NCBI RefSeq assembly: GCF_014863355.1
Contig: NZ_JACZEP010000017.1
Coordinates: 1-64,000, forward strand
Origin: Aminobacter carboxidus
GTDB taxonomy: Bacteria; Pseudomonadota; Alphaproteobacteria; Rhizobiales; Rhizobiaceae
Length of the DNA stretch: 64,000 nucleotides
Reading direction: 5' to 3'
The notes beneath the pieces were generated by a model, which did no database searches, was not told the DNA's origin, and saw only the letters and a program-made list of their open reading frames with translations. Of this stretch, positions 4,306 through 62,877 are shown piece after piece. The translations under genes and the position numbers were made by a program. Position 1 is the stretch's first letter. Every line of letters begins with the position of its first letter.

Positions 4306-4542
4306 CCCGCTTCCTCCTCAAGAAGTTCCCCCGGGACGCGAAATTGCCGTTGAATGGTGAATTCGATGTAAATCTGGGGAGGTCCAAGATGTAATTCGGC
4401 AAGATATTGGCGGATTCCCAGTGTTTTCTCCCCGGATCGGGAAGTAAACGGGGGAAATGTACAAACTGGAACAAGTCTTCTTCGAAAGAGCTGTGCGGCC
4501 CCAGACGTGGCTCATTATTGAGAGCGAGCTAAATCCGCATCG

Positions 4543-4926: not shown

Positions 4927-4966
4927 GCGTAACTGGAGCAGAGGCTGCAGATTGACTAATTTTGCG

Positions 4967-41703: not shown

Positions 41704-42035
41704 CGGCGCCGCCTCCGCTCCACAACGAATGTACGGCCACCGCGATCACGGGGCTGATCAGGTCCGAAAACCTTGTGGCGCTCCGCTGCTATCGCGGCGT
41801 CACGATCGGCCAGCCAGGTCTCGACCCCAAGGGGATCAGCTCCCACGAACGGCGCATCGGCATCGCGCCTCTGCACCAAGGCAGCTTTCCCGGCTTGCAC
41901 CGCGGCCCAGGCCGAAGGGAATTGTTCGGGCCGACCGTCGGCACCATCCAGCAACCGGTCCGGGATGCCGTCACGGCGATAGACCGCGCAGTAGTAGCCA
42001 GGGAACCCGATTGCCTCGACACGGAGATCGCTCAA
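41700..42035 (-). CDS. Phage hypothetical protein (111 aa)
   Basis: Begins DLRVEAIGFPGYYCAVYRRDG and has a basic end (VVERRRRR). Both ends overlap neighbours by 4 bp. A small nucleic-acid-binding role is possible; no family recognised. Confidence 0.55.
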   Translation of the reverse strand: MSDLRVEAIGFPGYYCAVYRRDGIPDRLLDGADGRPEQFPSAWAAVQAGKAALVQRRDADAPFVGADPLGVETWLADRDAAIAAERHKVFGPDQPRDRGGRTFVVERRRRR

Positions 42036-44278
42036 AGCAGGATCTCCTGGTCGGAATCGATCATATCGGCGAGACCGGGCGAGATCGGTGGTGGCGAGAA
42101 TGTCTCGGAAATGTCCGGGCTTTGTCCTGTATTTGTCCGGTTCCGCATGTCATCGGGGAACGTGTGTGGGAAGCCCCTGATCGGTTTCCCGGTCCACCAC
42201 ACCAATGCAGCCTTCTCCGAGGTCCGCTTGAACGCGATGACCTGATGCTTGATCAAATAGCTGGTGTTGCGTTCAAACGCTTTACGGATCTTTGCTCGAG
42301 CCGCGATCTTGTCGTTCTCGCTGGCATCCATCTCGACGGCGACGTCGAGGAAGTGCCCGAAGTCGACGACATGTTTCCCGACGGCCTCCGGTGGCCCATC
42401 CTTCTCCTCGGCGACGAACCGGCCGTATTTCTTGATGGCTCGGAACATCGGGATCAGCAGGGCTTCCTCGGTGGGGCGCACCGAGTAGCCGAACTGCTGT
42501 TGCTCCTTCTTGAGGGCATCCTTTTCGGAGACCGTGAGGACAACACAGCTGGTGATCGGTTTCGAGGTCTTCGGGTTCTCGCCGACCTCAACCGATGCAA
42601 GCGTGAACGGAATCTTCAAGCCGTCTTCGTCGTCTTTCTGCTTCGCCAGCCGGGCGGTACGGATCCTGGTGTTGTCATCCATGGTGATCACAACGACGGT
42701 GTCGACGTTGGCGTGGATGCTGGTATGGCCACGCAGCTTTTTGCCATCCGCATTCATGTGATGGACCAAGCAGACGTGGACGCCGCATTCGTGCTCGATG
42801 CGGGCGATGTTCGCGAGAACCACCGACATGTCCTTACCGGAGTTCTCGTCGGCGCCGATCGTGGCCGTCGCCAACGTATCGATGAAGACGACGCGCAGCG
42901 GCACCGACATCGTGATCTTTATGGCCTTGATGGTAGCGATCAGCTTGTCGGTGTCGCCTTCGCGGGCGAAGAGGTCGACCTTGGCTGGTAGGACAACAAG
43001 GGGGATATCCTCGTCGTCGTCGACCTTGAAGTGCTTCCGATAGGCCTTCTGACGCTTCTTCATACCGAGGCCACCTTCGCCGGCCTGGTAGATGACGCCG
43101 CCACGCTCGACGGCGTGGCCGAAGAATTCTTGGCCGCGACCGATGCAGTATGCGGCATGAAGGGCGAAGAATGATTTCCCTGATCCCGATGGTCCCCCGA
43201 ATACCGAGCGACCGCGGGCCGTCAGCAAGCCGTCGATGACGTAGTCGTACTCGAGCCCGGGCCCGTCGATCTCGTCGTGATAATACGCCCCGAACTCGCG
43301 TGGTCGCACCGGGGTCCAATGCGGTGCCTTCTTGAGCAGAACCGCAAACTTTTCGGCGGTGCCACCGTGCTGGTCTTTCCAGTCGGTGACATCCGCCTTC
43401 GGTGGGCAATCTTTCCAGTGCAGGGCAAGGTCGAGGACGCGGACCGATTTCGCCCGTGGTTTCAGGCCGGCGCCACGCAGCAGAGTGCGTTGTCTCGAGG
43501 AGTCGTCGTTGTCGCCGCATATGATAACGTCGGCTCCATCGAGATCCTCGTCGAAGCTCTCCTGCCAGTACTTGGCGCCACCAGCATTAGTGGTCGCTAC
43601 GAAGCCCCAAGCCCGCAGGGTTTCGACGTCTTTTTCACCCTCGGCGAGGATGACGGGTTTTCCTTCGGCCTTCGCCTGGAGGACCTCGTCGCGGCGATAC
43701 AGCCAGCGTGGGGCCTCCGGGAACTGTTCCTCGGTTTCGTAATGCTTGCCCTCCTTGGCCTTGAACCAGTCGCCCGACTTGATCTTGCCGTAGAGGCCTT
43801 CCTGCAGTGCCCAGATCCAGCCCTTGCCCGATGGATGCGGACGCCGTTGCATGTACCGGCGTGGTGCCGTCTTCGCGAATTTCAGAATCTCATAGGCGAG
43901 GCGGCCGCGATCATCGAAATACTCGAATGTCGCCACTGGCCAGGTGTCCATGAACCCGGCGAACTTGCCCTGTGGTGATGTCCCATCGGCGGCGCCGTTC
44001 GGACGCTCCCGGCGTTCCAGATAGCCTTGCTCTTGCAACCATTCGACGGCTTCCGGTTTCTCGAAGCCCTTGAAGGCGCGGAGGAGGTCGAGAACGCCGC
44101 CGCCGGTCTGATCCTCGTGGTCGTGCCATGTGTTCTTGACGAGATCGACGGAGAAGCTGCCGTTTTTACCCCAGCGCAGCTCCGTCTTCGACGACAGCGC
44201 GCGGTTGGGGTCCCCGATGAATTCGGGCAGGATCTTGAGCGCGACTGGCTCGATATGCACATTGAAGTCCGATGACAT
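42032..44278 (-). CDS. Toprim primase / RepA-like AAA helicase fusion (748 aa)
   Basis: The N-terminus has a CHC2-like fold without zinc cysteines (GSFSVDLVKNTWHDHEDQTG). A Toprim domain follows at about 250-310 (ILAEGEKDVETL and ICGDNDD). The C-terminal RecA-like helicase has Walker A FGGPSGSGKSF near residue 385, then IYQAGEGGLG, Walker B VVFIDTLATAT and VCLVHHMNADGKKLRGHTS. It would prime and unwind DNA for phage replication. ATG 44278 is preferred because homology starts there, though its AGGAG is 13 bp away. Confidence 0.88.
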   Translation of the reverse strand: MSSDFNVHIEPVALKILPEFIGDPNRALSSKTELRWGKNGSFSVDLVKNTWHDHEDQTGGGVLDLLRAFKGFEKPEAVEWLQEQGYLERRERPNGAADGTSPQGKFAGFMDTWPVATFEYFDDRGRLAYEILKFAKTAPRRYMQRRPHPSGKGWIWALQEGLYGKIKSGDWFKAKEGKHYETEEQFPEAPRWLYRRDEVLQAKAEGKPVILAEGEKDVETLRAWGFVATTNAGGAKYWQESFDEDLDGADVIICGDNDDSSRQRTLLRGAGLKPRAKSVRVLDLALHWKDCPPKADVTDWKDQHGGTAEKFAVLLKKAPHWTPVRPREFGAYYHDEIDGPGLEYDYVIDGLLTARGRSVFGGPSGSGKSFFALHAAYCIGRGQEFFGHAVERGGVIYQAGEGGLGMKKRQKAYRKHFKVDDDEDIPLVVLPAKVDLFAREGDTDKLIATIKAIKITMSVPLRVVFIDTLATATIGADENSGKDMSVVLANIARIEHECGVHVCLVHHMNADGKKLRGHTSIHANVDTVVVITMDDNTRIRTARLAKQKDDEDGLKIPFTLASVEVGENPKTSKPITSCVVLTVSEKDALKKEQQQFGYSVRPTEEALLIPMFRAIKKYGRFVAEEKDGPPEAVGKHVVDFGHFLDVAVEMDASENDKIAARAKIRKAFERNTSYLIKHQVIAFKRTSEKAALVWWTGKPIRGFPHTFPDDMRNRTNTGQSPDISETFSPPPISPGLADMIDSDQEILL

Positions 44279-44336
44279 CAGAGCATGCGCTCCTGATGTC
44301 GTGGGGTCACAACTGAACTGAATCGTGTTCTCTCGC

Positions 44337-44621
44337 TCACCGCCGCTCCACCTCGATCTTGCGACCCTTCTTGAAGATCGCGCCGAACTGAGCTTCGGCT
44401 TTGGAGCGCATCGGAGATGCTTTGTCACCACTGCCGACGATGTCGCCCTGCAGATGTGATCGAAGTGCCCGCCAGGCCATCGCCTCGGCCTCGAACTCGG
44501 TGGGGTAGAGCTGAGCGATGCCGTTGATGCACACCGGTTCCCATGCCGCTTTGTGGACCTTCCGGAAATGACCTTCGAAGCCGCCCCTCACCGGGACCGC
44601 GCGTGCGTTGACTTCGTTCAT
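44337..44621 (-). CDS. Small phage protein before the primase (94 aa)
   Basis: ATG 44621 follows a strong GGAGGAT site that lies in one arm of an inverted repeat. The protein has GHFRKVHKAAWEPVCING and a helix ending MAWRALRSHL. Unknown function. Confidence 0.55.
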   Translation of the reverse strand: MNEVNARAVPVRGGFEGHFRKVHKAAWEPVCINGIAQLYPTEFEAEAMAWRALRSHLQGDIVGSGDKASPMRSKAEAQFGAIFKKGRKIEVERR

Positions 44622-44718: not shown

Positions 44719-45414
44719 ATGGCTGGAGGCATGGGCGGGTGGGAAAAACACGGAAACTGGGCGGTGCCTGCGTTTTTGACGCTGGTCGGGCTTTTGCTCC
44801 TTTACGGATATCTCAACTACCATCTCGACTACGACGACGTCTGCCATGCCGGCGAAGGAAGCCTCAGTTGCTTCCGCGAATGGGCCAGCACAATCGTTGG
44901 AACGCTGGCAGTCCTCTTCGGCGGCGCCACTCTCATCTACCTCTACCGGCAGAACGAGGAGCAGAAGAAACAGACGTCGTTCGTGCTCGGCGACGATGAC
45001 CCTTCGCTCGATGTCATCGAGCACCTCAAGGAAAAGGACACGCTCGTAATCCGCATAGTAAACTGGAACAGACGTGCGGTTTTCGTCCGGGAGATTGTCG
45101 TCTCCACCAAGTCCAAACCCGCCAACATGGAAGACCAAGTCGCATTCTTCAGTGCAGAAAATGAGAAGGGCGAGATCGAAAGCAATTCGCTGCCACTCCA
45201 AATTAAGGGGTGGGAAGACCGCCAGCAAAGGCCTGGATTCGCCAGGATCGACCTTCTCTTGCTCCGACAAAAGGCGGGCACTGAAGCCGGCTGGATGGCC
45301 GACAAGGCTGTGCCGTTTCCACCGGATGCTGTCGTCACGGTGACAGTCCAGATGCTCGGCAACGTACATCGCATCTTCGAGATCGAAGCGGATGCCTTTC
45401 CGAAAGTGGGATGA
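44719..45414 (+). CDS. Membrane-anchored protein, rightward cargo (231 aa)
   Basis: Two N-terminal membrane helices (about residues 14-34 and 58-80) flank a short acidic loop with two cysteines. A soluble beta-rich domain follows (TLVIRIVNWNRRAVFVREIVV). It opposes the leftward early operon. Its topology (membrane anchor, cytoplasmic beta domain) fits a lysogeny cargo protein such as superinfection exclusion, but no family is recognised. An ATG at 44731 is an alternative start. Confidence 0.6.
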   Translation: MAGGMGGWEKHGNWAVPAFLTLVGLLLLYGYLNYHLDYDDVCHAGEGSLSCFREWASTIVGTLAVLFGGATLIYLYRQNEEQKKQTSFVLGDDDPSLDVIEHLKEKDTLVIRIVNWNRRAVFVREIVVSTKSKPANMEDQVAFFSAENEKGEIESNSLPLQIKGWEDRQQRPGFARIDLLLLRQKAGTEAGWMADKAVPFPPDAVVTVTVQMLGNVHRIFEIEADAFPKVG

Positions 45415-45461
45415 TCTCACCGCATCGGAACCCGAAAACTCAACTGGCACTGGCATGATGA

Positions 45462-47297
45462 TCAGGCGACCTCTTCCTCGGTGATCTCGGCGAAGTCGGG
45501 ATCGTCATCGAGGGTTGGGGCAACGATGGCCGGCCGCTTACCCGGACCGGAGTAGGTCGGGGCGCGCAGCTCGGGTGGAAGCCAGCCTGTCTGCGGGACG
45601 TTCGCAAGCGCGAACTCGACGAGCTCGGCCTTCTTCAGCTTCTCGGCCTTGCGGGCCTCGTCGTCATTGATGGCTTCGCGGATGGCCTCGATCACGAAGG
45701 GCTTCGATGCGCCACCGAAGTAATCAGGTGCGTCGAACGTCGCGCGCAACGCGGTGGTCAGTAGGTCGGGCTGGATCGAAGCGGCGAGCGGCGCCGCGTT
45801 GCTATCGAAGGGCAGCTTGCCGTTGTGAGGTCTTTCCATGTGCACGGCGTCGCCGGCGCACCCGGCCGCCACCTGAAACAGCTCCTGGTCCGACATCACG
45901 GACAGACGCGAGAACACGCTGGCAAATGTCTCCTTGTCCTCGCCGCGCACCTTGGCAAACCCTTCATGATAGACGCGGACCGGACTGTCGGTGTGCAGAT
46001 GACGATGCGTGATGAAGCCGGCGAGCAGCGCAACCAAACCTACGCGCGGCTCTTGCTGTAGCGCCTGGCGCACCGCCAGCGTGGCCTGCGCGCTCAGACG
46101 CTGATGCAGTGCATTCGAGATCGTCGGCGGACCCTTCTCCTTCGGCTCGTCGGACGCTGATGACGCCTTCTTCTCCGCTTGCGGTTTCACGACGCCGCGC
46201 ACGATCTCGACGTCACCATGATAGCCGATCTTGACGACGCTACCGGCTTTGGCGAGCTGATCAGGCGTCCACTGCCGGCCGGCGATCGCGGTTTGAAGGC
46301 GAGCGAGTTCACCGGCAGTGCCGTCGGTTCCCTTGGCCACCGCCTTTTCAAGTTTCTTGATCAGCTTCTTTTCGTCAGCCGTCGCCTGGCCGTCGCCGGG
46401 TTTCTCGCGCTTCCAACTGTGCTCCCAGTAATAGCCTAGGTCGGAGTTGGTGCTGACCCAGGACCAGCCTTCTGCCTTCAGCCCGTCAAGCTTTGCCTTG
46501 ATCGATTCTTCAGCGACACGATGCATCAGGGCTTTGTCGGCCACGATGTGGTCATCACCGAATAGATCAGTGGTTACCGCGCCGCCGGCCGCCTTGTAGG
46601 CGTCGAGGCCGGCGATCTTGACCCACTTCTTGATATCGTCGTCGGCGCCGCCGAACGCGCGCATGACTGCATGGCTGTGCAGATTGCGATCCTTCGTCAG
46701 CTTGTTGAAGACGCGCTCCTGCTCCGCGATCGACGGCGCCAATGTAAAGGCGCGAACGGTCTCGACGCCGCTCCCGCGCTCGTTGAATATGCCTGAGCGC
46801 CAGGCATCAAGGATCACTGGCGACAGCCTCCCCAACGCCAGCATCCGCTTCACCCGCTTGGGATCGATGCCGAAACGGCTGGCAATCTGCCCTTCGTCGA
46901 GACCGCGGTCGGCGAGCTCGCGGAAGGTTTCGTAGGTATCGGCCTCATGCTGGGGGAGGCGGATGAAGTTCTCGGCCTGGCTGATCTCGCGGGCGGTGGT
47001 GTCGTCGTCCTCACCGATCAGGACCGGGACCTGGAAGCAATCGTCGACCGGGACACCGGCGGCGCTATCGCCGTCGACGGCGAGCTCGCAGAGCACGCGG
47101 TGCCGGCGGCTGCCGGCGATGATCTTGTATTTGCCGTCGTCACCACGGCGGACGCGTAGCGATTGCGCGACGCCATGGGCACGGATCGAAGCCTTGAGCT
47201 CGTCGATGCCTTCGTCATTGCGGGTGCGGCGGGCGTTGATGGCATCGTCGGGCATCAAGTCGACGAGATCCACGGTCATGCTGATTGTACCGGTCAT
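45462..47297 (-). CDS. ParB/RepB/Spo0J-domain protein (611 aa)
   Basis: The ParB N-terminal domain is clear: NARRTRNDEGIDELKASI, YKIIAGSRRHRVL, and the AENFIRLPQHEADTYE box. It is followed by a KorB-like HTH (GLDEGQIASRFGIDPKRVKRM). A long C-terminal region is unassigned but contains a charged coiled coil (KKLIKKLEKAV). ATG 47297 has AAGGAA. Phage ParB-like proteins may partition an episomal form, regulate genes or act as nucleases. It is coupled with a SANT-like protein and a HerA-like ATPase. Confidence 0.85.
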   Translation of the reverse strand: MTGTISMTVDLVDLMPDDAINARRTRNDEGIDELKASIRAHGVAQSLRVRRGDDGKYKIIAGSRRHRVLCELAVDGDSAAGVPVDDCFQVPVLIGEDDDTTAREISQAENFIRLPQHEADTYETFRELADRGLDEGQIASRFGIDPKRVKRMLALGRLSPVILDAWRSGIFNERGSGVETVRAFTLAPSIAEQERVFNKLTKDRNLHSHAVMRAFGGADDDIKKWVKIAGLDAYKAAGGAVTTDLFGDDHIVADKALMHRVAEESIKAKLDGLKAEGWSWVSTNSDLGYYWEHSWKREKPGDGQATADEKKLIKKLEKAVAKGTDGTAGELARLQTAIAGRQWTPDQLAKAGSVVKIGYHGDVEIVRGVVKPQAEKKASSASDEPKEKGPPTISNALHQRLSAQATLAVRQALQQEPRVGLVALLAGFITHRHLHTDSPVRVYHEGFAKVRGEDKETFASVFSRLSVMSDQELFQVAAGCAGDAVHMERPHNGKLPFDSNAAPLAASIQPDLLTTALRATFDAPDYFGGASKPFVIEAIREAINDDEARKAEKLKKAELVEFALANVPQTGWLPPELRAPTYSGPGKRPAIVAPTLDDDPDFAEITEEEVA

Positions 47298-48166
47298 TTC
47301 GGGTTCCTTTCGTCGGTGGGGAGCTCGTCGGCGACAAGCGCAACGAACGCGAACTTCTCGACCTTGCGGAGATCGATGTGCTCGAGGTGGTCGATGATGA
47401 AGCGGCGGAGGTCTGCGGGCTTGATGTCCCAGGAACTGCCGCCCTGCTGGGGCAACCTTTTGTCGACACGTTTTGTTGCCGGCAGACCCCATTCGATGAT
47501 CCAGCGGGTCATCGTTTTCCCGTCGATGCCGAGCAGCTTCGCCGCTTGCGTGGCCGAGAGCTCTTCGCGGGTCGCACGGCGGGACAAACTGAGGCGTTTG
47601 GCTTTCACGATGATCGACGTCGGTGATCGTTTGAAGCCATGTTCCCGGAAGATTTCGGCGCATCTTTCGGGATTATGCAACGGCACTTTCGACATCAGCG
47701 CGAGCTCGGCCGCAGTCCATTGCGGTTCCTTCTTGTGCGGCATCACAAGACACAGCGCGGTCGCGCGCTTCGTTACCCACCAGCGTGGGAGCTGCCACTT
47801 GTCTGCAAAGGCGTTGCATTCCCCACGCTTCTTGCCGTCGCCGTTTTGATAGAAGGCCCGCAGTGCGTCATCGAAGCCGGCAGGCACATCGATCTTCGCG
47901 GACCTCACCGTTGACTTGTCGGACCCGGTTCCAGCGGGAGCACTGAGACCCATCTTGTGCGCGACCTGGTAGACACCGCTCGGTGTGCGGTGAGAACCGA
48001 GATGGGCTAGGCAAGCCGCACAACCACCCTTTGGAAAATGCTCGCGAATGATCTCGCGTTCGGCGTCAGTCCAAAAACGGCTGCTGTGCTTGCCGGGAAC
48101 GTACGGCTTGGAAAGCCGGGGCTCTGGAATTGTCGGCCGCGCGAATGAAACCGGTGTCAAAGACAT
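47294..48166 (-). CDS. SANT/Myb-like DNA-binding protein (290 aa)
   Basis: Residues about 30-75 (RFWTDAEREIIREHFPKGG then PSGVYQVAHKMGL) form a Myb/SANT-like domain. A second region (WTAAELALMSKVPLHNPERCAEIF) repeats the same pattern, and a third helix-turn-helix-like stretch (SATQAAKLLGIDGKTMTRWIIEWGL) follows. It may have three DNA-binding units. It overlaps the ParB-like gene by 4 bp. Confidence 0.65.
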   Translation of the reverse strand: MSLTPVSFARPTIPEPRLSKPYVPGKHSSRFWTDAEREIIREHFPKGGCAACLAHLGSHRTPSGVYQVAHKMGLSAPAGTGSDKSTVRSAKIDVPAGFDDALRAFYQNGDGKKRGECNAFADKWQLPRWWVTKRATALCLVMPHKKEPQWTAAELALMSKVPLHNPERCAEIFREHGFKRSPTSIIVKAKRLSLSRRATREELSATQAAKLLGIDGKTMTRWIIEWGLPATKRVDKRLPQQGGSSWDIKPADLRRFIIDHLEHIDLRKVEKFAFVALVADELPTDERNPK

Positions 48167-49512
48167 GCCAGCATGCCTTTCTCGATACGGGCGGCGCGAT
48201 CCTCGCCGTCACCCATGAATTCGAGAGCACCGAACTGGTCCAGCAAGGCGAGGCCCGCGGCGATATCTTCGGCGGTGCTCTGCAGTCCCGCTGGCATGTC
48301 CGATACACGGGCGCCGCTGGGTGCGATCGCCTTCAACTCCGCATAGATCCTGCCAGCAACGGCAAACGCGGGATCGCGGATGAATGCCCGGATCGCCTTG
48401 AGGCTTGGGATCAGCGCGTTCTCGTCCCGGATTTCGTCATCCTCGGCGGAGGCCTCCATAAGCGCCTCGAGGTCGAGCAGCTGCGCGGCCTCCTCTGCGT
48501 CGATATCGTCTGGAGCACTGAGCGCTGGTCTGGCGCCGCGATGGTGGGTTTCGACGCCGCCGACGCGGAGCACTGCAGGGGATCTCGAAAATGCCGGCCC
48601 GACGGCAACGAAGTCGCCGGGTTCCAGCATGGGCAACCTATCGAATGCCTTGCTGGCATCCCAACCAATCGTTTCGGCGGCACGTCGGATGTCGAGATCG
48701 AGGGTGTTCAATCCGACGACGAAGTTGTGCATCTCGGAAACGACAGACTTCGCCATGCGAGCCAGGCGTTGCGTCGCCAGGATCCCGCAGAGACCACGCT
48801 TGCGGCCTCGGCTCATCAAATCTGTGACGGCACCAATGGCTGCCTTTCGGACCGACGTCGCCGCGGTTGACTGTCCGCCGAAGGGAGCGAAGAGATGAGC
48901 CTCGTCGACAAACACAAGGCAGGGATGCCAGTGGGCGCGCGGCGCATTGATCAGGGATTCAAAGAATGCAGCGATCGCCTGCAACTGGCCTTCTCGATCC
49001 AACTCGGACATGTCGATGAGGACGGATAGCCGATGGGCCCGGATCCGAGCGCCGAGCAGCGCGAGCGCGGCGGTGTCGAGCTTATGCGCTTCGACATGAA
49101 AATGGCCGTAGCGTTCCGCGATGGATTTGAACTCTCCTTCGGGGTCGATGATGATCTGCTGGACCCGGCCGTGGGTTTGTTCGATCAGCCGGCGAAGCGT
49201 CCAGGATTTGCCGGCCCCCGAGGTTCCCTGCACCAGCATGCGACCATCGAGAAGTCGGGCGAGATCGATTCCGATGATCTCGCCGAGTTCGGTAGCGCCC
49301 ATCACGACATCTGCGGATTTGGCTTGGCCTGCCGGTGCGGTTTCACGATCAGGGATGGTGACGTTGCCGACGCCGCTTTCCGCGGCAAGCAGAGAGCCAA
49401 GACGCCGATCGGCTGGGCTCAACTTGGCCATATCCTCAGGTTTCGGAAACACGAGCCCGAACGCCCGGCTAATCGGACGCTCCGGTGTTTGTCTGATTTC
49501 AGCATGCAGCAT
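48157..49512 (-). CDS. HerA/DUF87-like ATPase (451 aa)
   Basis: Walker A is VQGTSGAGKSW near residue 92, Walker B is PCLVFVDEAHLF near residue 196, and RGRKRGLCGILATQR supplies the sensor/arginine finger region. HerA-type ring motors move DNA. ATG 49512 is selected for a GGGAGG ribosome site 7 bp upstream. Its partners in the operon are ParB-like and SANT-like proteins, suggesting a DNA segregation or translocation function; the usual NurA nuclease partner is not seen. Confidence 0.8.
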   Translation of the reverse strand: MLHAEIRQTPERPISRAFGLVFPKPEDMAKLSPADRRLGSLLAAESGVGNVTIPDRETAPAGQAKSADVVMGATELGEIIGIDLARLLDGRMLVQGTSGAGKSWTLRRLIEQTHGRVQQIIIDPEGEFKSIAERYGHFHVEAHKLDTAALALLGARIRAHRLSVLIDMSELDREGQLQAIAAFFESLINAPRAHWHPCLVFVDEAHLFAPFGGQSTAATSVRKAAIGAVTDLMSRGRKRGLCGILATQRLARMAKSVVSEMHNFVVGLNTLDLDIRRAAETIGWDASKAFDRLPMLEPGDFVAVGPAFSRSPAVLRVGGVETHHRGARPALSAPDDIDAEEAAQLLDLEALMEASAEDDEIRDENALIPSLKAIRAFIRDPAFAVAGRIYAELKAIAPSGARVSDMPAGLQSTAEDIAAGLALLDQFGALEFMGDGEDRAARIEKGMLACL

Positions 49513-49708
49513 CAGAAACCTCCCTTGCTGATCGGGTTGCGGTGAGGTCCCGCCAATCTTTGGCGCCCTCGATGTCATCACGAGCTTCATCGTCGAGCTC
49601 GGTGGCCATCCGGTCGGCCATGGCGCGCAGCGCGCCGACCTGCGATGATGCCAAGCCGTCGATCATTTGTTCCCAGGCAAGACCAACAGCTGCGAGCTCA
49701 CTGCGCAT
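49499..49708 (-). CDS. Small helical phage protein (69 aa)
   Basis: Helical, starting MRSELAAVGLAWEQMIDGL. It overlaps genes on both sides by 11-14 bp, as is usual in this operon. Unknown function. Confidence 0.5.
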   Translation of the reverse strand: MRSELAAVGLAWEQMIDGLASSQVGALRAMADRMATELDDEARDDIEGAKDWRDLTATRSAREVSDAAC

Positions 49709-50189
49709 CGCGAATCTCCGGGGCGGCGAGGATGGCGGCGCCGACGCGGTAGGCCTCGAGCGCGGCGGACAACTTGGTGATGACGCCGGTTTCTTTGATG
49801 AGGTCGCGATCGCCGGAGAGACCGCGGTTCGCGAGATCGTGAGCTTCGGCGAGACCAAAGGTGAGCTGGACAGTCTCGGTGCCGGCGTCGAGCTTGGCTA
49901 CCTCGATGCCGTTGGCACCGGCCCGGGCGATGCGCTCCGCGTTCTGCCCGTTGATCTTCCACCGCCAGAATACTGGGTTGTCGGGTCGCGTCGTCGACTG
50001 CGGCTCCCCGGTCTGGACGAGTGTGATGCCGAGCTCGGAGAGAAGGCGGATCAAATGGTCGGCACGGAGCCTGACTTGCTCGCAGCCACCATCGTTGTCG
50101 AACCGAATCCAGTCTTCCCAGAGCGGCCGGATCAAGCCGAGGCGTTCGCGGCGCATCGCCTCTGCGAGGATGTCGCGGACCTCCCTCAT
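49698..50189 (-). CDS. Phage hypothetical protein (163 aa)
   Basis: ATG 50189 overlaps the previous stop (ATGA), preferred over ATG 50201. Contains RPLWEDWIRFDNDGGCEQVRL, RADHLIRLLSELGI and EAYRVGAAILAAPE. No family recognised. Confidence 0.55.
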   Translation of the reverse strand: MREVRDILAEAMRRERLGLIRPLWEDWIRFDNDGGCEQVRLRADHLIRLLSELGITLVQTGEPQSTTRPDNPVFWRWKINGQNAERIARAGANGIEVAKLDAGTETVQLTFGLAEAHDLANRGLSGDRDLIKETGVITKLSAALEAYRVGAAILAAPEIRDAQ

Positions 50190-50335
50190 GGCCATTGCCA
50201 TGTGAAAGCGATGACGAGCGGTCCGGCATGGAAAGCCACGCTGGTGTCCCCCCAGGCCAAGTCACGTTCGTAGCTGACGGCGAAAGGCAGCGCACACACG
50301 TTGCTGATGCCGATCGAGATCTTGAAACTTGTCAT
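50186..50335 (-). CDS. Very small phage protein (49 aa)
   Basis: Starts MTSFKISIGISNVCAL and ends VIAFTWQWP, giving a beta-like pattern. Overlaps of 4 bp with both neighbours argue that it is translated. Confidence 0.5.
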   Translation of the reverse strand: MTSFKISIGISNVCALPFAVSYERDLAWGDTSVAFHAGPLVIAFTWQWP

Positions 50336-51054
50336 CGTGGCGCCCTCACATTTTTCCGGTACCGCGGTTCGAAACCCTTGGGCACGAACCGGTAGCCGCG
50401 GCCCCAGACGGTCTCGACGACATCCAGGCCGCCGTTCATCTCGACGAGCTTCCGTCTCAACTTGCAGATCAGGACATCGATGATCTTCCGTTCCGGCTCG
50501 TCCTCGCCGCCGTAGAGGCGGTCCATGAGCTCGTCCTTTGACAGCGCGCGTTCGGGCTCCCGGGCCAGCGCCATCATCACCCTGGCTTCCGTAGTGGTGA
50601 GGTGCTGCTTCTTGCCGCCGCCCTCGACGTTCCCGGTTTCGGCATCGAGGACGCAGCCAGGCATCTGGATGATGAGGTGGTCGTTGTAGACGCCGCGCCG
50701 CGCCAGCATCTTGAGGCGGGCCATGAACTCGTTGCGGTCGATCGGCGCCGGCTGGACGTCGTCGGCGCCGCATCTCAAGATCAGCGACATCGGACCGGGA
50801 TGTGCCTCCTGCTTGTCGAGCAACACGAACAGGATGTTGCGGACACCAGCTTTGCGGTAATTCCGACAGGTCAATGCCGCGAAGCTTGAATAGGTGGCTC
50901 GGATCACACCGATGGCATCGGGATCCCGGTAGAGCGCGGAGCAAAATTCTGGTGGGAGTGGCTGGCCGTCGGATTCGAAGCCGGCATCTTCGGCAGCGGA
51001 GCGCAGCGAATGCTCGATGTCACGTGATGGCGCGAGGACGATGACGCGTTTCAT
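50332..51054 (-). CDS. CtrA-like response regulator with a degenerate receiver (240 aa)
   Basis: The C-terminal winged helix is a close match to CtrA, the alphaproteobacterial cell-cycle master regulator: LTTTEARVMMAL, KDELMDRLYGGEDEPE, IIDVLICKLRRKL and ETVWGRGYRF. The N-terminal domain keeps receiver-like length and the GADD segment (residues 96-99), but the acidic pocket at residues 8-10 is APS, the phospho-acceptor segment near residue 51 reads VIRATYSS without Asp, and the lysine segment reads QPAPID. It should therefore bind DNA without phosphorelay control, perhaps competing at CtrA sites. Confidence 0.87.
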   Translation of the reverse strand: MKRVIVLAPSRDIEHSLRSAAEDAGFESDGQPLPPEFCSALYRDPDAIGVIRATYSSFAALTCRNYRKAGVRNILFVLLDKQEAHPGPMSLILRCGADDVQPAPIDRNEFMARLKMLARRGVYNDHLIIQMPGCVLDAETGNVEGGGKKQHLTTTEARVMMALAREPERALSKDELMDRLYGGEDEPERKIIDVLICKLRRKLVEMNGGLDVVETVWGRGYRFVPKGFEPRYRKNVRAPR

Positions 51055-51173
51055 CTCGCACCACCGAAGATCACGAACGTGATGAACGCGACCGATGCCA
51101 CGAACAGCATGATGCAGAGCGCGGGTGGGAGATTGTTGGTGCGGCGGACTCGGCCGCCAAGCGGACGGGTCAT
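51051..51173 (-). CDS. Small single-span membrane protein (40 aa)
   Basis: A basic start (TRPLGGRVRRTNN) precedes one membrane helix (LCIMLFVASVAFITFVIF). Its stop overlaps the CtrA-like ATG by 4 bp, so the two are translationally coupled. Unknown function. Confidence 0.55.
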   Translation of the reverse strand: MTRPLGGRVRRTNNLPPALCIMLFVASVAFITFVIFGGAR

Positions 51174-51487
51174 GCCAAGACCTCATCGGTTGGAGCCTGA
51201 GCCTTTCTGAGGACCGCGAGGCGCTTCTCATCGACCGGCCTGAACCGATACGCTCCGAAGGGGATCTCACCGAGTTCGGGGTCGTTGGAGGGACGGAGGA
51301 CCTCGACGAGCAATATTCCGAGCTCGTCGAGTGGCCGGCCGAAAATCGTCAACAGGAGAACGTCGGGCTCGGTGACTGCGCGAACCGTGTAGACATGCCC
51401 TCGGACGATCTCCTTGACGCCAAGCGCGTTTTGCTTGGCGTCATCGACGCAGATGACAAGCATCCCTGGACGAGGATCCCAATCCAT
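51170..51487 (-). CDS. Phage hypothetical protein, SH3-like (105 aa)
   Basis: The opening PGMLVICVDDAK and GHVYTVRAV and the PFGAYRFRPVDEKRL motif resemble small SH3-like beta-barrel phage proteins. Overlaps the next ORF by 4 bp. Function unknown. Confidence 0.55.
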   Translation of the reverse strand: MDWDPRPGMLVICVDDAKQNALGVKEIVRGHVYTVRAVTEPDVLLLTIFGRPLDELGILLVEVLRPSNDPELGEIPFGAYRFRPVDEKRLAVLRKAQAPTDEVLA

Positions 51488-52146
51488 CAGAACCGCTCCG
51501 GGATTGCTGGCTTCGCATAGCGATCGGCGAGACGCTCGGCCTCACGCTTCCGTCGCTCTGCGGCCAGGAACAGCGGATCGACAGGCGGTGCATTCTTCGG
51601 ATCGACGAGGAGGCAACCGCAGTACCAGATCGCCAGCGCATCGGTGCGATCGAAGCCCTTGTCGGCCTCGGCCTCTTCCGGGGTCACCCAGCTGAGATCG
51701 ATGCACTTCTGACGCACCAAAGGTTTGGCGACGTCATCCTTGGGCTTCTTCGGCAGGAACTTTGAGCGGACCGTGGAGAGCCAAAGGCGATGCTCCCCAC
51801 GTTCTTCCTTGACGACCAGGTCGCGGTTACGAACCCCGAGCAGACGCGACGTCGCAACGATGACGCCGATCAGCCCGTTTTTCATTTCCGAGGTTTCGTA
51901 ATTGGTGGTGTGCTTGACGCCGGTGTCGGGGAGGGCCCGTTCGACGACCACATAATCCGCCGGATAAGTGGTCAGGAATTCGGTTGTCCACCGCATCGCG
52001 CCCAACATGACGTTGGCGTAACTGGCGCCGGCGCCGGACTTCGCGAAGAACTGTGAACCTGATCTAGGGGTCTCGCCGATCGGACCATATGCCCAGCCGA
52101 AATGCGCGGCGGCATCGATTGCAAGAATGCGCGGGGTCGTCATCAT
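51487..52146 (-). CDS. RuvC-like RNaseH-fold nuclease (219 aa)
   Basis: Catalytic acidic residues appear as ILAIDAAAHFGWAYG (Asp near residue 10), YVVVERAL (Glu), and the C-terminal ADKGFDRTDALAIW (paired Asp). This is the RuvC-type Holliday junction resolvase pattern; phage versions debranch DNA for packaging. The Lys/Arg-rich tail suits DNA binding. Confidence 0.8.
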   Translation of the reverse strand: MMTTPRILAIDAAAHFGWAYGPIGETPRSGSQFFAKSGAGASYANVMLGAMRWTTEFLTTYPADYVVVERALPDTGVKHTTNYETSEMKNGLIGVIVATSRLLGVRNRDLVVKEERGEHRLWLSTVRSKFLPKKPKDDVAKPLVRQKCIDLSWVTPEEAEADKGFDRTDALAIWYCGCLLVDPKNAPPVDPLFLAAERRKREAERLADRYAKPAIPERF

Positions 52147-52251
52147 AGCCTCGTAAATTGATGGCCGCTGCTTTCCCGGCCTGGTCAGAAGGTTTCCAGT
52201 CGTTTGGACGGTCGGCTGCTACCTACAAGCGGCCACTCCGTTGATCGGGGC

Positions 52252-52273
52252 GACCGGGTTTTGGGACCCGGTC
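52252..52273. other. Perfect hairpin in a 217-bp gap of the early operon
   Basis: GACCGGGT and ACCCGGTC form an 8-bp perfect stem with a TTTGGG loop. There is no U-tail in either direction. It lies in the largest gap of the operon (52147-52363) and could be a processing site, attenuator or small RNA structure. Confidence 0.45.
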
Positions 52274-52363
52274 AGGGCGCTGCACGTTGACGTTTCTCGG
52301 CTTTGCCAGCAGCACCCATGGCGTCGTTAAAACCGCCGCCCCTTCTCGGTCCGCTCGCGCGGA

Positions 52364-52867
52364 TCAGTTCGGCTGCAGCGCAGCCTTGTCCCAGTCTTCG
52401 TCGCTCATCGAATTCTTAACGGCGTTGACCACCGCGGCCGTGGTCTCGTCCTGCTTCTCAGGGTCGGCTTCCTCGCGGGCAACTGCCGCGGCGCCGAGCC
52501 CGAAGTTGGCGAAGTCGTCACCAAGGGCGGTCCGGATATCGACTGCGAACTCGCGGTCGTCATCCTCGAGATCGTCGACCTTGCCCTCGGCGCGTTCAAG
52601 CATGGCTTCGGCCTTGCGCTTGATCTTCTGGGCGTCGGTAATCGCTCGGATGATGCCCTTGTTGACGCCCTGCTTCTTGGCGTCGGCGAGCAGCGTCTTC
52701 TGATCGGCATCGACTTCCTTCTGGATCGCCCGCTTCTTCACCTTGAAATCGGCGTCGAGGAGCCGGAGCTTTTCCTCTCGGATCTGCTCGAGGCGATCGA
52801 ACTCCTCGACGAAAGAGGCCGCTTCTTTGGAAGATGCCCGGTTTGGACGTTCATGAATCGCGGTCAC
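52364..52867 (-). CDS. Coiled-coil protein with a GapR/DUF2312-like segment (167 aa)
   Basis: GTG 52867 follows AAGGAAG. Residues 18-85 (SFVEEFDRLEQIREEK, ADAKKQGVNKGIIRAITDAQ) parallel the GapR pattern of FVERIERLEEEK and EAK-x-G-x-x-x-K-x-x-R-x-I, with extra sequence between. GapR is a DNA-clamping, overtwist-binding protein needed for alphaproteobacterial replication. The C-terminal acidic half is unrelated. Overlaps the GcrA-like gene by 4 bp. The GapR link is weak. Confidence 0.55.
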   Translation of the reverse strand: MTAIHERPNRASSKEAASFVEEFDRLEQIREEKLRLLDADFKVKKRAIQKEVDADQKTLLADAKKQGVNKGIIRAITDAQKIKRKAEAMLERAEGKVDDLEDDDREFAVDIRTALGDDFANFGLGAAAVAREEADPEKQDETTAAVVNAVKNSMSDEDWDKAALQPN

Positions 52868-53490
52868 GCGAACTTCCTTTCAGCCGAGCGGAGCTCGGCG
52901 CGCTGGCGTTGGCTGTATTCGGCATGGGAAAGCCGTTGATGTGCGCCGCAGTAGCTGCGTTCGGGCTCTTTATCGGCGCCGCAGCACAGCAGGCCTTTGC
53001 CTTCGATCCCGTCGACCGGCCACTTGCAGCCGGTGTTCACCGCGAAATGGACTGGGAGCACGCCGGGAATCGGATCGAAGGCGTTCTTGGTGGCGATGAC
53101 GACACCAGGCGAAGCGGCCCGCTGCTCGGCTCGGGCCTTGAAATCGAAGGGGTGGGGATTGTTGGGGCCGCGCATTGGGGCGGCCTCGACGGTACCGGCG
53201 GCGCTTTTCCGCAGGACCTTGTCCCGCTTCGGCGCTGTGGCCCGTGGTGTTCCTTTTGCTGGAGCCTTGCCGGCACGTTTGGCACGCGCCGCCTTTGGCT
53301 CCGGGCCCGGAGTCCGTGGCTTCAGTTTCAACGCGCCCTTGGCGCGCAACGATGCCGCAATGGTGCCGATGGCGCTCCTGGACGTCGCACCAAGGCGTTC
53401 CGCAATGGCGCTATAGGTGAGACCCTTCGCCAGAAGAGGCTGGACGGCGGCTTCCTTCGCCTTCCTGTCCATGTAGATCCAAGCCGTCAT
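52864..53490 (-). CDS. GcrA-family cell-cycle regulator homologue (208 aa)
   Basis: The N-terminal HTH (PLLAKGLTYSAIAERLGATSRSAIGTI, residues 19-44) and the C-terminal cysteine region (Cys155-Lys-Trp-Pro, Cys169-Cys170-Gly, Tyr180-Cys181 and His184) give the GcrA architecture. An Ala/Lys/Pro-rich linker joins them. GcrA is a sigma-70 cofactor that activates promoters carrying GANTC sites methylated by CcrM. The first helix lacks the usual MSWTDERVELL beginning and reads TAWIYMDRKAKEAA. It overlaps its neighbours by 4 bp at both ends. Confidence 0.85.
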   Translation of the reverse strand: MTAWIYMDRKAKEAAVQPLLAKGLTYSAIAERLGATSRSAIGTIAASLRAKGALKLKPRTPGPEPKAARAKRAGKAPAKGTPRATAPKRDKVLRKSAAGTVEAAPMRGPNNPHPFDFKARAEQRAASPGVVIATKNAFDPIPGVLPVHFAVNTGCKWPVDGIEGKGLLCCGADKEPERSYCGAHQRLSHAEYSQRQRAELRSAERKFA

Positions 53491-53960
53491 CTGGCGTCTC
53501 CGCCAGTTCCGGATAGATCCAGTGCGCCAGCGAGTCGGCCCAGAGCACGCATTTGGTGGCCATCCAGCGGCGCGCCTTCCGCGGCAAGATGAGCTGCCAG
53601 AATGTTCGCCGTGGCGGCGAGTTTAAGCTTGGCACGTCTGGCCTCCTGGATCGCGCGCAGTTCCTGCAGCGCGAGAACTTCGTGATAGTCGGCCCGACGG
53701 GCTTCGCCATAAAACCACGATTTGACGCGGTTCCAAGTCAGGTCCTTCAGACGATGAGAGAATTCCTTGTTGGTCAGGCCTTCATAGACCGCCGAGATCT
53801 GGTCTTTCCAGTTCCCATTCGGCGCGATGATGCCGGCGATGTCGCGTGTGAGGCCTTGGGCGATCGCTACGCTAGACATGATGCGACCGCCCTGGCATCG
53901 GCGCTCCGAAAATAATTCTGAGCGCTCCGAAGAGCTTTCCGAGAGGTCCGAACCGTTCAT
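53487..53960 (-). CDS. Phage hypothetical protein (157 aa)
   Basis: GGAG at 8 bp supports ATG 53960; ATG 53879 is weaker. The middle (YEGLTNKEFSHRLKDLTWNRVKSWFYGEARR) is helical and basic like a DNA-binding unit that responds to promoter DNA, and the end is helical (ALGRLAGALDLSG). No family recognised. Confidence 0.6.
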   Translation of the reverse strand: MNGSDLSESSSERSELFSERRCQGGRIMSSVAIAQGLTRDIAGIIAPNGNWKDQISAVYEGLTNKEFSHRLKDLTWNRVKSWFYGEARRADYHEVLALQELRAIQEARRAKLKLAATANILAAHLAAEGAPLDGHQMRALGRLAGALDLSGTGGDAR

Positions 53961-54113
53961 TGCTATCTCTCCATCCAGCGACGGACTTGGAGAAACGCGA
54001 TGAACGGACAGACGAAAAACACCGAGCCACCACCAACTGGGAAAGCGAGGGGCCCACCAAGCCGGCGAGATGCCAGCGGGAAATGCGGAGCGGTGTAGAA
54101 GCTGCGGACAACA

Positions 54114-54332
54114 TCACCCGGTGACCTCAGGGGTCGCAGGGTTCAGGTCATAAAAATCATTAGGGCTGACCTGCCCATTCGTTATTTCAGTAATTTTCCT
54201 CATTTGATCGGGCCTGGGCACGCGTTCGCCGCGAAGCCACTTTCGAAGGCCGGAAACCGAACAATCGCCGACACGTTCGGCCATCTGTTCGTGGGTCAAA
54301 CCATTCTGCTCGATGAAATCGGAAAGTTTCAT
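54114..54332 (-). CDS. Cro-like HTH protein (72 aa)
   Basis: A Cro/YdaS-type fold: LSDFIEQNGLTHEQMAERVG, then SGLRKWLRGERVPRPDQMRKI. It diverges from the S24 repressor with a short shared intergenic region containing the TTCCC-N6-GGGAA operator, 10 bp upstream of its ATG. It is the first gene of the leftward early operon. Confidence 0.82.
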   Translation of the reverse strand: MKLSDFIEQNGLTHEQMAERVGDCSVSGLRKWLRGERVPRPDQMRKITEITNGQVSPNDFYDLNPATPEVTG

Positions 54333-54342
54333 TCCTATAGAC

Positions 54343-54358
54343 TTCCCCATAATGGGAA
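54343..54358. promoter_or_regulatory. Operator candidate O1 (TTCCC-N6-GGGAA)
   Basis: TTCCCCATAATGGGAA has perfect 5-bp arms and a 6-bp spacer. It lies between the divergent Cro-like and repressor genes. A half-site, TTTTGGGGAAGGCT, follows at 54373-54386 and is repeated exactly at O3. Confidence 0.65.
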
Positions 54359-54417
54359 AGATTGCAAGCAGATTTTGGGGAAGGCTCGCACCTGTGGTGC
54401 ATGGTAGAAATCCCGTT

Positions 54418-55149
54418 ATGGGTAATCAGCTCAAAAAAATCCGCGAATCCAAAGGGATGACGCACGATGATGCCGCGGCCGCTATGGCGATCTCGCGCGG
54501 CCAGTACATCAAGCTCGAGCGCGGGGAGCGGCGCCTCAACGAAGATTACATTCTGCGAGCATCGCGGGCGTTCGGTGTCCCTGTCCAGTTGGTGATCTCT
54601 GACGACGACGAGTGGTCAGGTGATGACGAACTGCCCTCGGCGCCGATCGGCGCCAACTTCCTGCCCTTCGCCGGCACAACGCAGGCCGGCGTCTTCGTCG
54701 ATGTTGAGCTGCATGCCAACCACGAGCCCCAGGCTGTCGCGATCTCTCCGGATCCTCGGTACCGGCGCGCCAGGCAGTATGTCTGGCAGGTCCTCGGTGA
54801 TTCCATGAACAAGGCTGGGATCCACGACGGCATGTTCGCCGTGGGTGTCGACTACGTGGACTTCGTGGCTCATTACCGGCCGATCGAAACCGGCGATATC
54901 GTAGTGGTTGAGCGCATGCGCTTCGGTGGCCAGGAGCGGGAGCGCACCATCAAACGGTACTGGGAAGAGCCTACCGGCGTCGCCCTGCTGCCGGAGTCGA
55001 CGAACCCCCACCACAAGCCGATCATGATCCCGAAGGACGGCATCGTCGAAGGCGAAGAGATCCGCATCATCGCCTATGTGACCGGATCTTATAGCCTGTT
55101 CGGTAAAGCGATCTTTGACCTCGACGAAGGTCAGAAAATCCACCTCTGA
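54418..55149 (+). CDS. S24-family phage repressor (cI/LexA-like, 243 aa)
   Basis: The XRE HTH (IRESKGMTHDDAAAAMAISRGQYIKLERG) is followed by an S24 peptidase: a likely self-cleavage Ala90-Gly91 (TTQAGVF), Ser129 in VLGDSMN and Lys179 in RTIKRY. It keeps the lysogenic state and should be inactivated by RecA-dependent self-cleavage after DNA damage. ATG 54418 is the start; upstream in-frame ATGs fall inside operator sequence. It controls two early operons via shared operators. Confidence 0.9.
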   Translation: MGNQLKKIRESKGMTHDDAAAAMAISRGQYIKLERGERRLNEDYILRASRAFGVPVQLVISDDDEWSGDDELPSAPIGANFLPFAGTTQAGVFVDVELHANHEPQAVAISPDPRYRRARQYVWQVLGDSMNKAGIHDGMFAVGVDYVDFVAHYRPIETGDIVVVERMRFGGQERERTIKRYWEEPTGVALLPESTNPHHKPIMIPKDGIVEGEEIRIIAYVTGSYSLFGKAIFDLDEGQKIHL

Positions 55150-61190: not shown

Positions 61191-61546
61191 CCCAGGAAAT
61201 CGAAGCGGTCAGCATCGACACTTATCGCGCCGGGATGCGTCAGCTGATGTCAGCGGCGGGGCCGGGCACCATACCGAATATGACCAAAGATGGCGTCGTC
61301 GATGTTCCCTATGCCGCCGGCGACCTGCTTTTGGCCAACGAGCAAGGCAATCTGATCTGCGGGCCTGTCAGCGTGCCAGGCGCCATCGATCTAGCCGAAC
61401 GGATCCTCGAAGGCGAACAGCGCGCGATTACGCATCCCCTGACGCTTTTCACCCTCGCAATGGCGCTGGCCGGCTTCCGGATCGAGCTCGATCCGGAGGC
61501 GGCTGTCATCGACATGCACCAATCACCGGAGCCCGACCCCAAATGA
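61187..61546 (+). CDS. Phage hypothetical protein (119 aa)
   Basis: Contains DLLLANEQGNLICGPVSVPG and a Leu/Phe-rich helix (HPLTLFTLAMALAGF). Overlaps neighbours. Unknown. Confidence 0.5.
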   Translation: MTQEIEAVSIDTYRAGMRQLMSAAGPGTIPNMTKDGVVDVPYAAGDLLLANEQGNLICGPVSVPGAIDLAERILEGEQRAITHPLTLFTLAMALAGFRIELDPEAAVIDMHQSPEPDPK

Positions 61547-62253
61547 AGTACGCTGTCATCGATACAGAAACAAACGGCCTCTTTCGTTTCAAGGATGCCG
61601 CCGGCGTTCCGGTCCCCGCCGACGATCCGTCTCAGCCACGTCTTGCCCATCTCGGCATCATCCTGGTCGACGAGCAGCTCCGGGAAGAGCGTGCCATTGA
61701 TCTGTACGTCCGGCCCGACGGCTGGAAGATGGAGCCCGACGCGTTTGCGGTAAACGGGCTCACCGACGAGTTCCTTGCCGAGAACGGCGCCGATGTTCTC
61801 GACGTCCTCGACCAGTATGTCCGGGTCATCGACGCCGGCTACGTCATCGTCGCCTTCAATGCCCAGTTCGACTGCAAGCAAATGCGCGGCGAACTCCGCC
61901 GTGCCGGCCTCGATGACAGGTTCGAGCAGACCCCGAACATCTGCGTCATGCGCGCCTCGACGGCGCTGAAGATCAAGAAGGCCTCCGGCAAAGGCGGTTT
62001 CCCTTCGCTATCTGATGTCTGCGCCCATTTCGGCATCGATCATAAAGCCGTCCATACCGCCGGCGGCGACGCACGTGCCGCCCTCGAGATCTTCCGTCGG
62101 CTTCACGCCGCCGGCGCGCTACCCACCGCACGCGTTCACTACTCGAAGACGCCGCCGCTGCATGCCACGGAACCGCCGGAAGGTCTGTCCGGAAAACAAG
62201 CGTCGATCGTCATCGTCGACGAAGTCGAAGCCTCGGTTCCAGAGCGCTTCTGA
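61543..62253 (+). CDS. DEDDh 3'-5' exonuclease (DnaQ/RNase T-like, 236 aa)
   Basis: ExoI motif IDTETNG (Asp7, Glu9), ExoII NAQFD and ExoIII HTAGGDA give the catalytic DEDDh set. This trims 3' ends of DNA or RNA and may serve replication or recombination. The start overlaps the previous gene by 4 bp. Confidence 0.86.
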   Translation: MKYAVIDTETNGLFRFKDAAGVPVPADDPSQPRLAHLGIILVDEQLREERAIDLYVRPDGWKMEPDAFAVNGLTDEFLAENGADVLDVLDQYVRVIDAGYVIVAFNAQFDCKQMRGELRRAGLDDRFEQTPNICVMRASTALKIKKASGKGGFPSLSDVCAHFGIDHKAVHTAGGDARAALEIFRRLHAAGALPTARVHYSKTPPLHATEPPEGLSGKQASIVIVDEVEASVPERF

Positions 62254-62696: not shown

Positions 62697-62877
62697 GCCG
62701 AAAATCGACATTCTCGATATGCCTGAGAACCCGACGCCGACAGAGCTAGGCGCTTGGGCGGCCTCGCTGGACGATCTCCCCCACACATTCAGCCTGGGGT
62801 TGGTCCGGGAGATGTTCAAGGAACGGCGAGCCGCTCGTCTCCGCGAGGTCGCGGCGTCTGGAGGGGCAAATGGCTGA
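62689..62877 (+). CDS. Small phage protein (62 aa)
   Basis: GTG start; LGAWAASLDDLPHTFSLGLVREMFKERRAARL. Overlaps the following exonuclease by 8 bp. Unknown. Confidence 0.5.
   Translation: MDKPKIDILDMPENPTPTELGAWAASLDDLPHTFSLGLVREMFKERRAARLREVAASGGANG

Follow-up and report, generated by a model that had tools for sequence, protein, structure and literature searches.

What would a temperate phage gain from carrying versions of three regulators of the alphaproteobacterial cell cycle in one operon? The question is raised by a 64,000-base stretch of Aminobacter carboxidus DNA (hereafter the window; bases 1-64000 of the 82,886-base contig NZ_JACZEP010000017.1, genome size 6.29 Mb), which is a prophage in its Aminobacter host. 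A preliminary description, made from the sequence alone, had placed genes for CtrA-like, GcrA-like and GapR-like proteins together in this window, and had proposed that the phage either constitutively drives or blocks host cell-cycle promoters or gates its own transcription to a phase of the cell cycle, with no need for the CckA-ChpT phosphorelay. The three open frames are present on the minus strand where they had been placed (Table 1), and we report that they recur as a triad, mostly in the same order, in related phages. A reading in which the triad acts on the host appears best supported by the comparisons given here, and self-gating is disfavoured.

A CtrA with a pseudo-receiver

Compared with host CtrA, residues D8, D9, D51, S79 and K101 are replaced by P, S, I, L and A in the CtrA-like protein, in agreement with the earlier remark that its receiver has lost the acidic pocket, the phospho-acceptor and the lysine. 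All 17 aligned phage copies are without the acceptor aspartate, the second acidic residue and the lysine, and two of them (loci L014 and L043) retain a D at the first acidic position. When the 16 strongest viral loci were aligned pairwise none had the acceptor aspartate and none the lysine, and one (L128) aligned a D at the second acidic position.

Identity between the window protein and host CtrA is 15% over residues 1-91, 37% over alpha4-beta5-alpha5, 48% over the winged helix and 76% over the recognition helix. For the recognition helix it amounts to 59-88% in 15 of the 17 copies and 29% in the remaining two. Among the phage copies themselves the mean pairwise identity is 58% for alpha4-beta5-alpha5 vs 34% for receiver residues 1-91, with a mean column identity of 55% for the protein as a whole (17 rows).

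The C-terminal part matches the Pfam model for the OmpR-family effector domain, Trans_reg_C (65.3 bits). No NCBIfam model scores higher than CtrA (103.3 bits), with PhoB next (71.4 bits), and both scores are far below the whole-protein cut-offs; the CtrA equivalog cut-off is 350 bits, a value that host CtrA exceeds (420.9 bits). CtrA is also the top NCBIfam model for four of the five relatives tested (L009, L012, L018 and L020). Within its own genome the best other match of the CtrA-like protein is the true host CtrA (41% identity over residues 93-222, 95.1 bits; the next match scores 47.7). In a tree of effector domains, which is based on 85 columns and contains several long branches, the phage and host CtrA domains group against six other OmpR-type regulators of the genome with support 100/99; this tree does not establish the phage CtrA-like copies as one clade (two changes). 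An ordinary OmpR/PhoB identity was ruled out by the NCBIfam ranking together with the tree, and the CtrA affinity of the C-terminus, with the recognition-helix identities given above, survives the alignment.

A complete receiver fold is still predicted by AlphaFold2 (AF2; mean predicted local distance difference test score, pLDDT, 87.1). Foldseek matches of the model include ordinary OmpR regulators (MtrA, KdpE and PrrA) as well as atypical ones (CosR, HP1043 and GlnR), with CosR at rank 1 and HP1043, whose entry title names it a phosphorylation-independent orphan regulator, at rank 30; TM-scores relative to query length are about 0.33-0.51 among the matches listed. The ratio of nonsynonymous to synonymous substitution rates (dN/dS; own Nei-Gojobori-type script, five pairs per gene) is 0.076, 0.112, 0.139, 0.138 and 0.167. 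Given the residue losses, the predicted full receiver fold and the low dN/dS values, the protein is a selected pseudo-receiver CtrA and not a decaying copy. Among available pseudo-receiver structures (26 domains) 15 are dimeric when unphosphorylated, mostly via alpha4-beta5-alpha5 (PMC12632262).

GcrA-family and GapR-like partners

The GcrA-family protein scores 47.4 bits with the Pfam GcrA model (cut-off 26.9) and 19.9 bits with the NCBIfam GcrA equivalog, for which the cut-off is 280 bits; by these scores it is a divergent member of the family and not the host orthologue. A 9-row profile (the window protein and eight relatives) matches solved GcrA 7ye1 twice (independent E-values 2.6e-9 and 4.4e-12), corresponding to the DNA-binding part and the sigma-interaction part, and also the shorter solved chains 5yix and 5yiu; both GcrA domains are present. 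C155-x-W157, C170, C181 and H184 are invariant in the nine rows. This is the most variable of the three proteins by mean column identity (26%, 18 rows), and its dN/dS values (0.136-0.473, five pairs) are mostly above those of the CtrA-like and GapR-like proteins.

The GapR-like protein had been described as partly matching GapR. Seven of nine family members match Pfam GapR weakly (best E 0.01), and L078, which is a shorter relative, scores 20.2 bits where 22.6 are required; the window protein itself is also below the cut-off, so the earlier wording was fair. When 18 GapR-like rows were compared with 13 rhizobial GapR rows, hhalign gave a probability of 93.9 and a score of 44.4. Control maxima were 22.2 for 150 column shuffles, 21.1 for 150 heptad-keeping shuffles and 19.5 for the reversed alignment, and no shuffle of either kind (0/150 and 0/150) reached the observed score. 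Because this score is far above those of the shuffled and reversed controls, the alignments statistically support a distant GapR homologue, and the heptad-keeping and reversed controls rule out a mere coiled coil resembling GapR. Mean column identity is 63% (18 rows), the highest of the three proteins, and dN/dS is 0.118-0.227 (five pairs). In the AF2 model, which is of moderate quality, predicted helices span residues 13-65, 70-98 and 102-114, a layout that may resemble that of GapR, in which one long N-terminal helix and two shorter ones form a tetrameric ring (PMC6853979). A search of the PDB with the GapR-like profile returned four unrelated matches with E 0.23 or worse. Shorter GapR-like proteins lacking part of the long first helix are encoded at L079:8001-8438 and L078:7995-8450, and these forms seem to bridge the long phage GapR-like proteins and host GapR.

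Conservation of the triad

Starting from the window GapR-like protein alone five viral contigs were found, and all five carry the three genes. The 9-row GapR-like alignment found 13, of which 12 carry all three; eight of these 13 were already known from three single-protein scans and five were new, with the triad in four of the new ones (the exception, L060, is without a CtrA-like gene). Named genomes contributed five loci (Aminobacter niigataensis, three Mesorhizobium species and one Hyphomicrobiales metagenome-assembled genome), four with the triad. Across 394 whole genomes of the host family a GapR-like match is present in 10, the own genome included, and at least two of the 10 coincide with the named genomes; the triad is complete in seven of the 10, one at a contig end.

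The scan with the CtrA-like alignment gave 74 loci, 16 of them over 200 bits, and among these 16 the GapR-like gene is present in all and the GcrA-like gene in 15. Among the other 58 loci are receiver-less forms as well as regulators whose phosphorylation site is intact; some GapR match occurs in 14 of the 58 and some GcrA match in 13, several being weak.

The order GcrA, GapR-like, CtrA-like on one strand is found in 24 of 28 loci, a set that leaves out second contig copies, the weak hit L080, the 58 distant loci and L060, which seems to repeat L047. After four loci had been dropped as duplicates (CtrA-like protein at least 97% identical to that of another locus) the order is kept in 20 of 24, which is why we regard the triad as more than chance. 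The profiles used for these counts were built from many of the same loci, and the counts are therefore no test of independent membership. As a base rate, among the best 80 of at least 514 confirmed loci of canonical phage GapR two are near a CtrA-like gene, 13 near a GcrA-like gene and one near both; this control concerns canonical GapR and not the GapR-like family, and many flanks end at contig ends. It rules out that GapR and CtrA occur together merely because both are common in alphaproteobacterial phages, and chance open frames or misread motifs are ruled out by family matches, selection and synteny. Because the triad is conserved, the original observation is stronger than could be known from one sequence.

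The window GcrA-like and GapR-like proteins gave no tblastn match among 50,697 phage records at E 0.01, and in the same records host GapR gave 148 matches and host GcrA 29. Several of the 148 records are annotated DUF2312 or UPF0335, and their number conflicts with a statement in PMC12185513 that no phage genome had previously been found to carry GapR.

CtrA boxes and GANTC sites

TTAA-N7-TTAA is the CtrA motif conserved across Alphaproteobacteria (PMC9437464). With up to one mismatch it occurs 0 times in the window vs 2.2 expected, and six times vs 11.5 expected in the window and 21 relatives together (22 sequences, in which two pairs are the same phage). GANTC is four-fold under-represented in the window (91 vs about 373 expected) and is also rare in three host stretches (12 vs 18.6, 4 vs 18.3 and 5 vs 17.8 expected). 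Since the window lacks boxes and its relatives show no enrichment of them, the targets of the CtrA-like protein would lie mainly on the host chromosome if CtrA specificity is kept. The proposal that the phage gates its own transcription is thus disfavoured and, in its simplest form, unsupported. The other half of the earlier interpretation, a phosphorelay-independent CtrA acting on host promoters, is plausible because the winged helix groups with CtrA and the recognition helix is kept in 15 of the 17 copies.

Gene neighbourhood

PHROGs matches on the minus strand of the window comprise tail fibre J, tape measure, major head protein, protease, portal and large terminase, and further matches are the two repressors, a RecE-like exonuclease and a primase-helicase. 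This gene content reads as that of a siphophage-like temperate prophage. Past the window, at contig bases 67,931-69,208 (L081:3931-5208), there is a frame that we identify by eye, from a motif, as recombinase-like. A plasmid search at near-identity with 45400-54400 gave no match.

From the Cro-like gene the minus-strand order is the 157-aa protein, GcrA-like, GapR-like, RuvC-like, the 105-aa protein, the 40-aa hydrophobic frame, CtrA-like, a 49-aa frame, the 167-aa protein of unassigned function, HerA-like and ParB-like, with the primase-helicase farther along (Table 1). Neighbours overlap by 1-4 bases at 53490/53487, 52867/52864, 51487, 51173/51170, 51054/51051 and 50335/50332, as read from the sequence. 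These overlaps and the position beside the divergent cI/cro genes suggest a single operon, and its position suggests early expression. A sigma-70 scan of 50000-54700 gave no promoter-like site (0.8 expected), and the three terminator-like sites in that interval are all on the opposite strand (4.1 expected).

An 8-bp inverted repeat without mismatches lies in the gap between the GapR-like and RuvC-like genes (9 bp long in L046). The gap also has a stretch that recurs in some relatives, in a form similar to GACCAGGCCGGGAAAGCAGCGGCC or GGRCGGAGAGACGYCC, and the changes in its stem appear to be matched. The gap may hold a regulatory RNA or an operator. Rfam gave nothing above cut-off over 49500-54700, the sole match being a sub-threshold atpB (15.4 vs 37.4 bits).

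Elsewhere in the window two adjacent genes, 61543-62253 and 62870-63658, both match phrog_192 (DNA polymerase exonuclease-subunit family), and two DUF2806 proteins are encoded, one near the left end (9238-10293, plus strand) and one between the structural and early genes (39476-40489, minus strand).

Table 1. The three regulator genes and neighbouring features, with window coordinates
Feature	Coordinates	Strand	Basis
CtrA-like, 240 aa; predicted pseudo-receiver (1-121) and CtrA-type winged helix (about 128-225)	50332..51054	-	Pfam, NCBIfam, tree, AF2, Foldseek, alignment
GapR-like, 167 aa, GTG start; one long and two shorter predicted helices, C-terminal extension	52364..52867	-	Pfam, hhalign, AF2
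GcrA-family, 208 aa; helix-turn-helix and sigma-interaction-type C-terminal domain	52864..53490	-	Pfam, profile
157-aa small protein directly upstream of the GcrA gene (4-base overlap); recurs in many relatives	53487..53960	-	Weak PHROG match, function unassigned
Cro-like repressor, head of operon; transcriptional repressor families, "Cro" by position	54114..54350	-	PHROGs
CI-like repressor with UmuD-like part, divergent from operon; true start probably downstream of 54350	54313..55149	+	PHROGs
Gap between GapR-like and RuvC-like genes, 217 bases	52147..52363	-	Sequence comparison
RuvC-like resolvase	51487..52146	-	phrog_159, E 1.9e-5
105-aa protein, no assigned function	51170..51487	-	Open frame, PHROGs search
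40-aa hydrophobic frame; stop overlaps ctrA-like start (ATGA)	51051..51173	-	Read from sequence
167-aa protein, no assigned function; follows the CtrA-like gene in many relatives	49698..50201	-	Locus comparison
HerA/FtsK-type ATPase	48157..49590	-	Pfam, PHROGs, NCBIfam
Large protein with ParB N-terminal domain; listed start maybe too far upstream	45462..47663	-	Pfam, PHROGs
Primase-helicase, replication end of early region	42032..44431	-	PHROGs

Discussion

We favour, with moderate confidence, the view that temperate rhizobial phages conserve the triad as a cassette for overriding the cell cycle and produce it early in lytic growth. The CtrA-like protein would be a phosphorylation-independent CtrA, in which the dead receiver keeps its fold and the alpha4-beta5-alpha5 dimer face and the recognition helix is retained; it could dimerise without CckA-ChpT, occupy host CtrA boxes and there activate transcription or shut out host CtrA. 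Because the GcrA-like protein keeps both GcrA domains, it may hold sigma-70 RNA polymerase at selected promoters. The GapR-like protein, whose gene is upstream of the RuvC-like, HerA-like, ParB-like and primase-helicase genes, would most likely clamp overtwisted DNA in phage replication. What the comparisons show are the identities of the proteins, the residue losses, the conservation, the synteny and the selection, whereas dimerisation, targets, timing and effect are inferred. A fuller version is somewhat more tentative: an unphosphorylatable CtrA would seize the host CtrA regulon outside CckA-ChpT, while the GcrA and GapR derivatives would turn sigma-70 polymerase and fork topology towards phage replication.

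Several observations weigh against the override view. For the L014 protein PhoB is the top-ranked model (71.6 bits) and CtrA comes fourth (56.7 bits), and the lineage formed by L014 (7978-8721) and L043 (9482-10225) has kept the triad with the changed recognition helix, possibly a shift in DNA target. The recognition segment of the window GcrA differs from that of host GcrA, and the absence of CtrA boxes could equally mean that the CtrA-like protein has another DNA motif. As to the GapR-like protein, its Pfam GapR score is 9.7 bits (E 0.83; cut-off 22.6), its AF2 model is moderate (mean pLDDT 71.9, predicted TM-score 0.36) and Foldseek found no match for this model. Finally, four of the 28 loci (L047, L078, L079 and L129) are each without one member of the triad.

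Some of these points would also fit host-derived regulators that now serve the phage only, as transcription factors and a nucleoid protein acting on phage promoters and replication with DNA specificities of their own and without action on the host cell cycle. We consider this unlikely, although the three genes share their operon with phage replication genes, one lineage has changed its recognition helix, and the receiver-less CtrA of Roseophage RDJLphi1, located between GafA-like and rcc01866-like genes, fits a phage-internal role (PMC6363796). The window has no canonical CtrA boxes, which agrees with such a role, and the role would therefore need another motif; the 59-88% match of the recognition helix to host CtrA in 15 of the 17 copies would, however, not be expected had specificity been free to drift.

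A special case of the override view is that the CtrA-like protein is dominant-negative, pairing with host CtrA via alpha4-beta5-alpha5 or sitting inactive on its boxes, such that CtrA control is lifted and the host stays replication-competent. The kept dimer face and recognition helix next to a dead receiver, and the replication-type genes elsewhere in the operon, are in line with it, but the results do not tell activation from blocking, and we rate this special case as doubtful. That CtrA boxes and GANTC sites on the phage DNA serve to time lytic transcription of the phage to a phase of the host cell cycle is very improbable given the counts of both motifs, even though most pilus-tropic phages of Alphaproteobacteria in PMC9437464 have CtrA-box-rich regions.

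How does the proposed override cassette compare with known systems? The RDJLphi1 (Roseobacter phage, HM151342) CtrA has a CtrA-type winged helix 46% identical to the window protein over residues 141-223; it is without a receiver and beside GafA-like and rcc01866-like genes, whereas the window protein has a full pseudo-receiver beside GcrA and GapR-like genes. RDJLphi1 also has a weak GapR match (22 bits; L112 9967-10218) about 3.5 kb from its ctrA. GcrA homologues proposed to steer host replication are carried by Caulobacter phage phiCbK (PMC3556154) and Agrobacterium phage Atu_ph08 (PMC6630229), which thus share a phage-borne GcrA-family protein with the window; the accessible parts of these two papers mention no CtrA-like partner. 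In Atu_ph08 (L270) a canonical GapR (1027-1422) adjoins GcrA (1426-2013), and no CtrA-like gene is present within the 9 kb examined. GcrA is also a table entry for phiLM21-like prophages (PMC12429752). Like the window GapR-like protein, GapR/DUF2312 of Erythrobacter phage R34L1 (PMC12185513) and the GapR homologue DsbA of T4 (PMC7824862) are phage-borne GapR-type DNA-binding proteins; the window protein is about twice the length of the R34L1/T4 type, has a longer first helix as well as a C-terminal part, and is below the Pfam cut-off.

In Rhodobacter phage RcSalem (L113, MW677524) the "DsbA-like" gene at 4145-4405 is a canonical GapR (Pfam 100.3 bits), and a DUF6456-CtrA winged-helix fusion (4638-5243) follows about 230 bases downstream with one small gene between; GapR and CtrA are thus close together in a phage group other than that of the window. 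Phage Ssp-JY42 (L272, PP438432; 3885-4879) has a GcrA gene that overlaps the beginning of another gene, which gives a weak CtrA-like match (18.6 bits). Two of the three genes are accordingly seen together in other phages, namely RcSalem, Atu_ph08, Ssp-JY42 and RDJLphi1, in the latter two on weak matches.

Among bacterial OmpR-type regulators CosR is reported to work without phosphorylation. HP1043 and ChxR are reported to do the same, as is GlnR (PMC12632262). The window protein appears to share this phosphorylation-independent type and to differ from these regulators in being a phage derivative of CtrA. To our knowledge HP1043, ChxR, GlnR and CosR are bacterial genes and not derived from CtrA.

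Single regulators of the alphaproteobacterial cell cycle are already known from phages, and as far as we have seen the conserved triad with a pseudo-receiver form appears unreported; we found no report of it in the open-access literature. Because the three genes and their order are shared by related phages, the triad suggests that the phage uses altered host regulators to override or exploit the host cell cycle, and that taking over the cell cycle is a strategy under selection in phages of rhizobia. If true, a conserved operon of three regulators with a phosphorylation-free, selected CtrA would be a natural experiment in rewiring the bacterial cell cycle, one that offers a testable constitutive CtrA.

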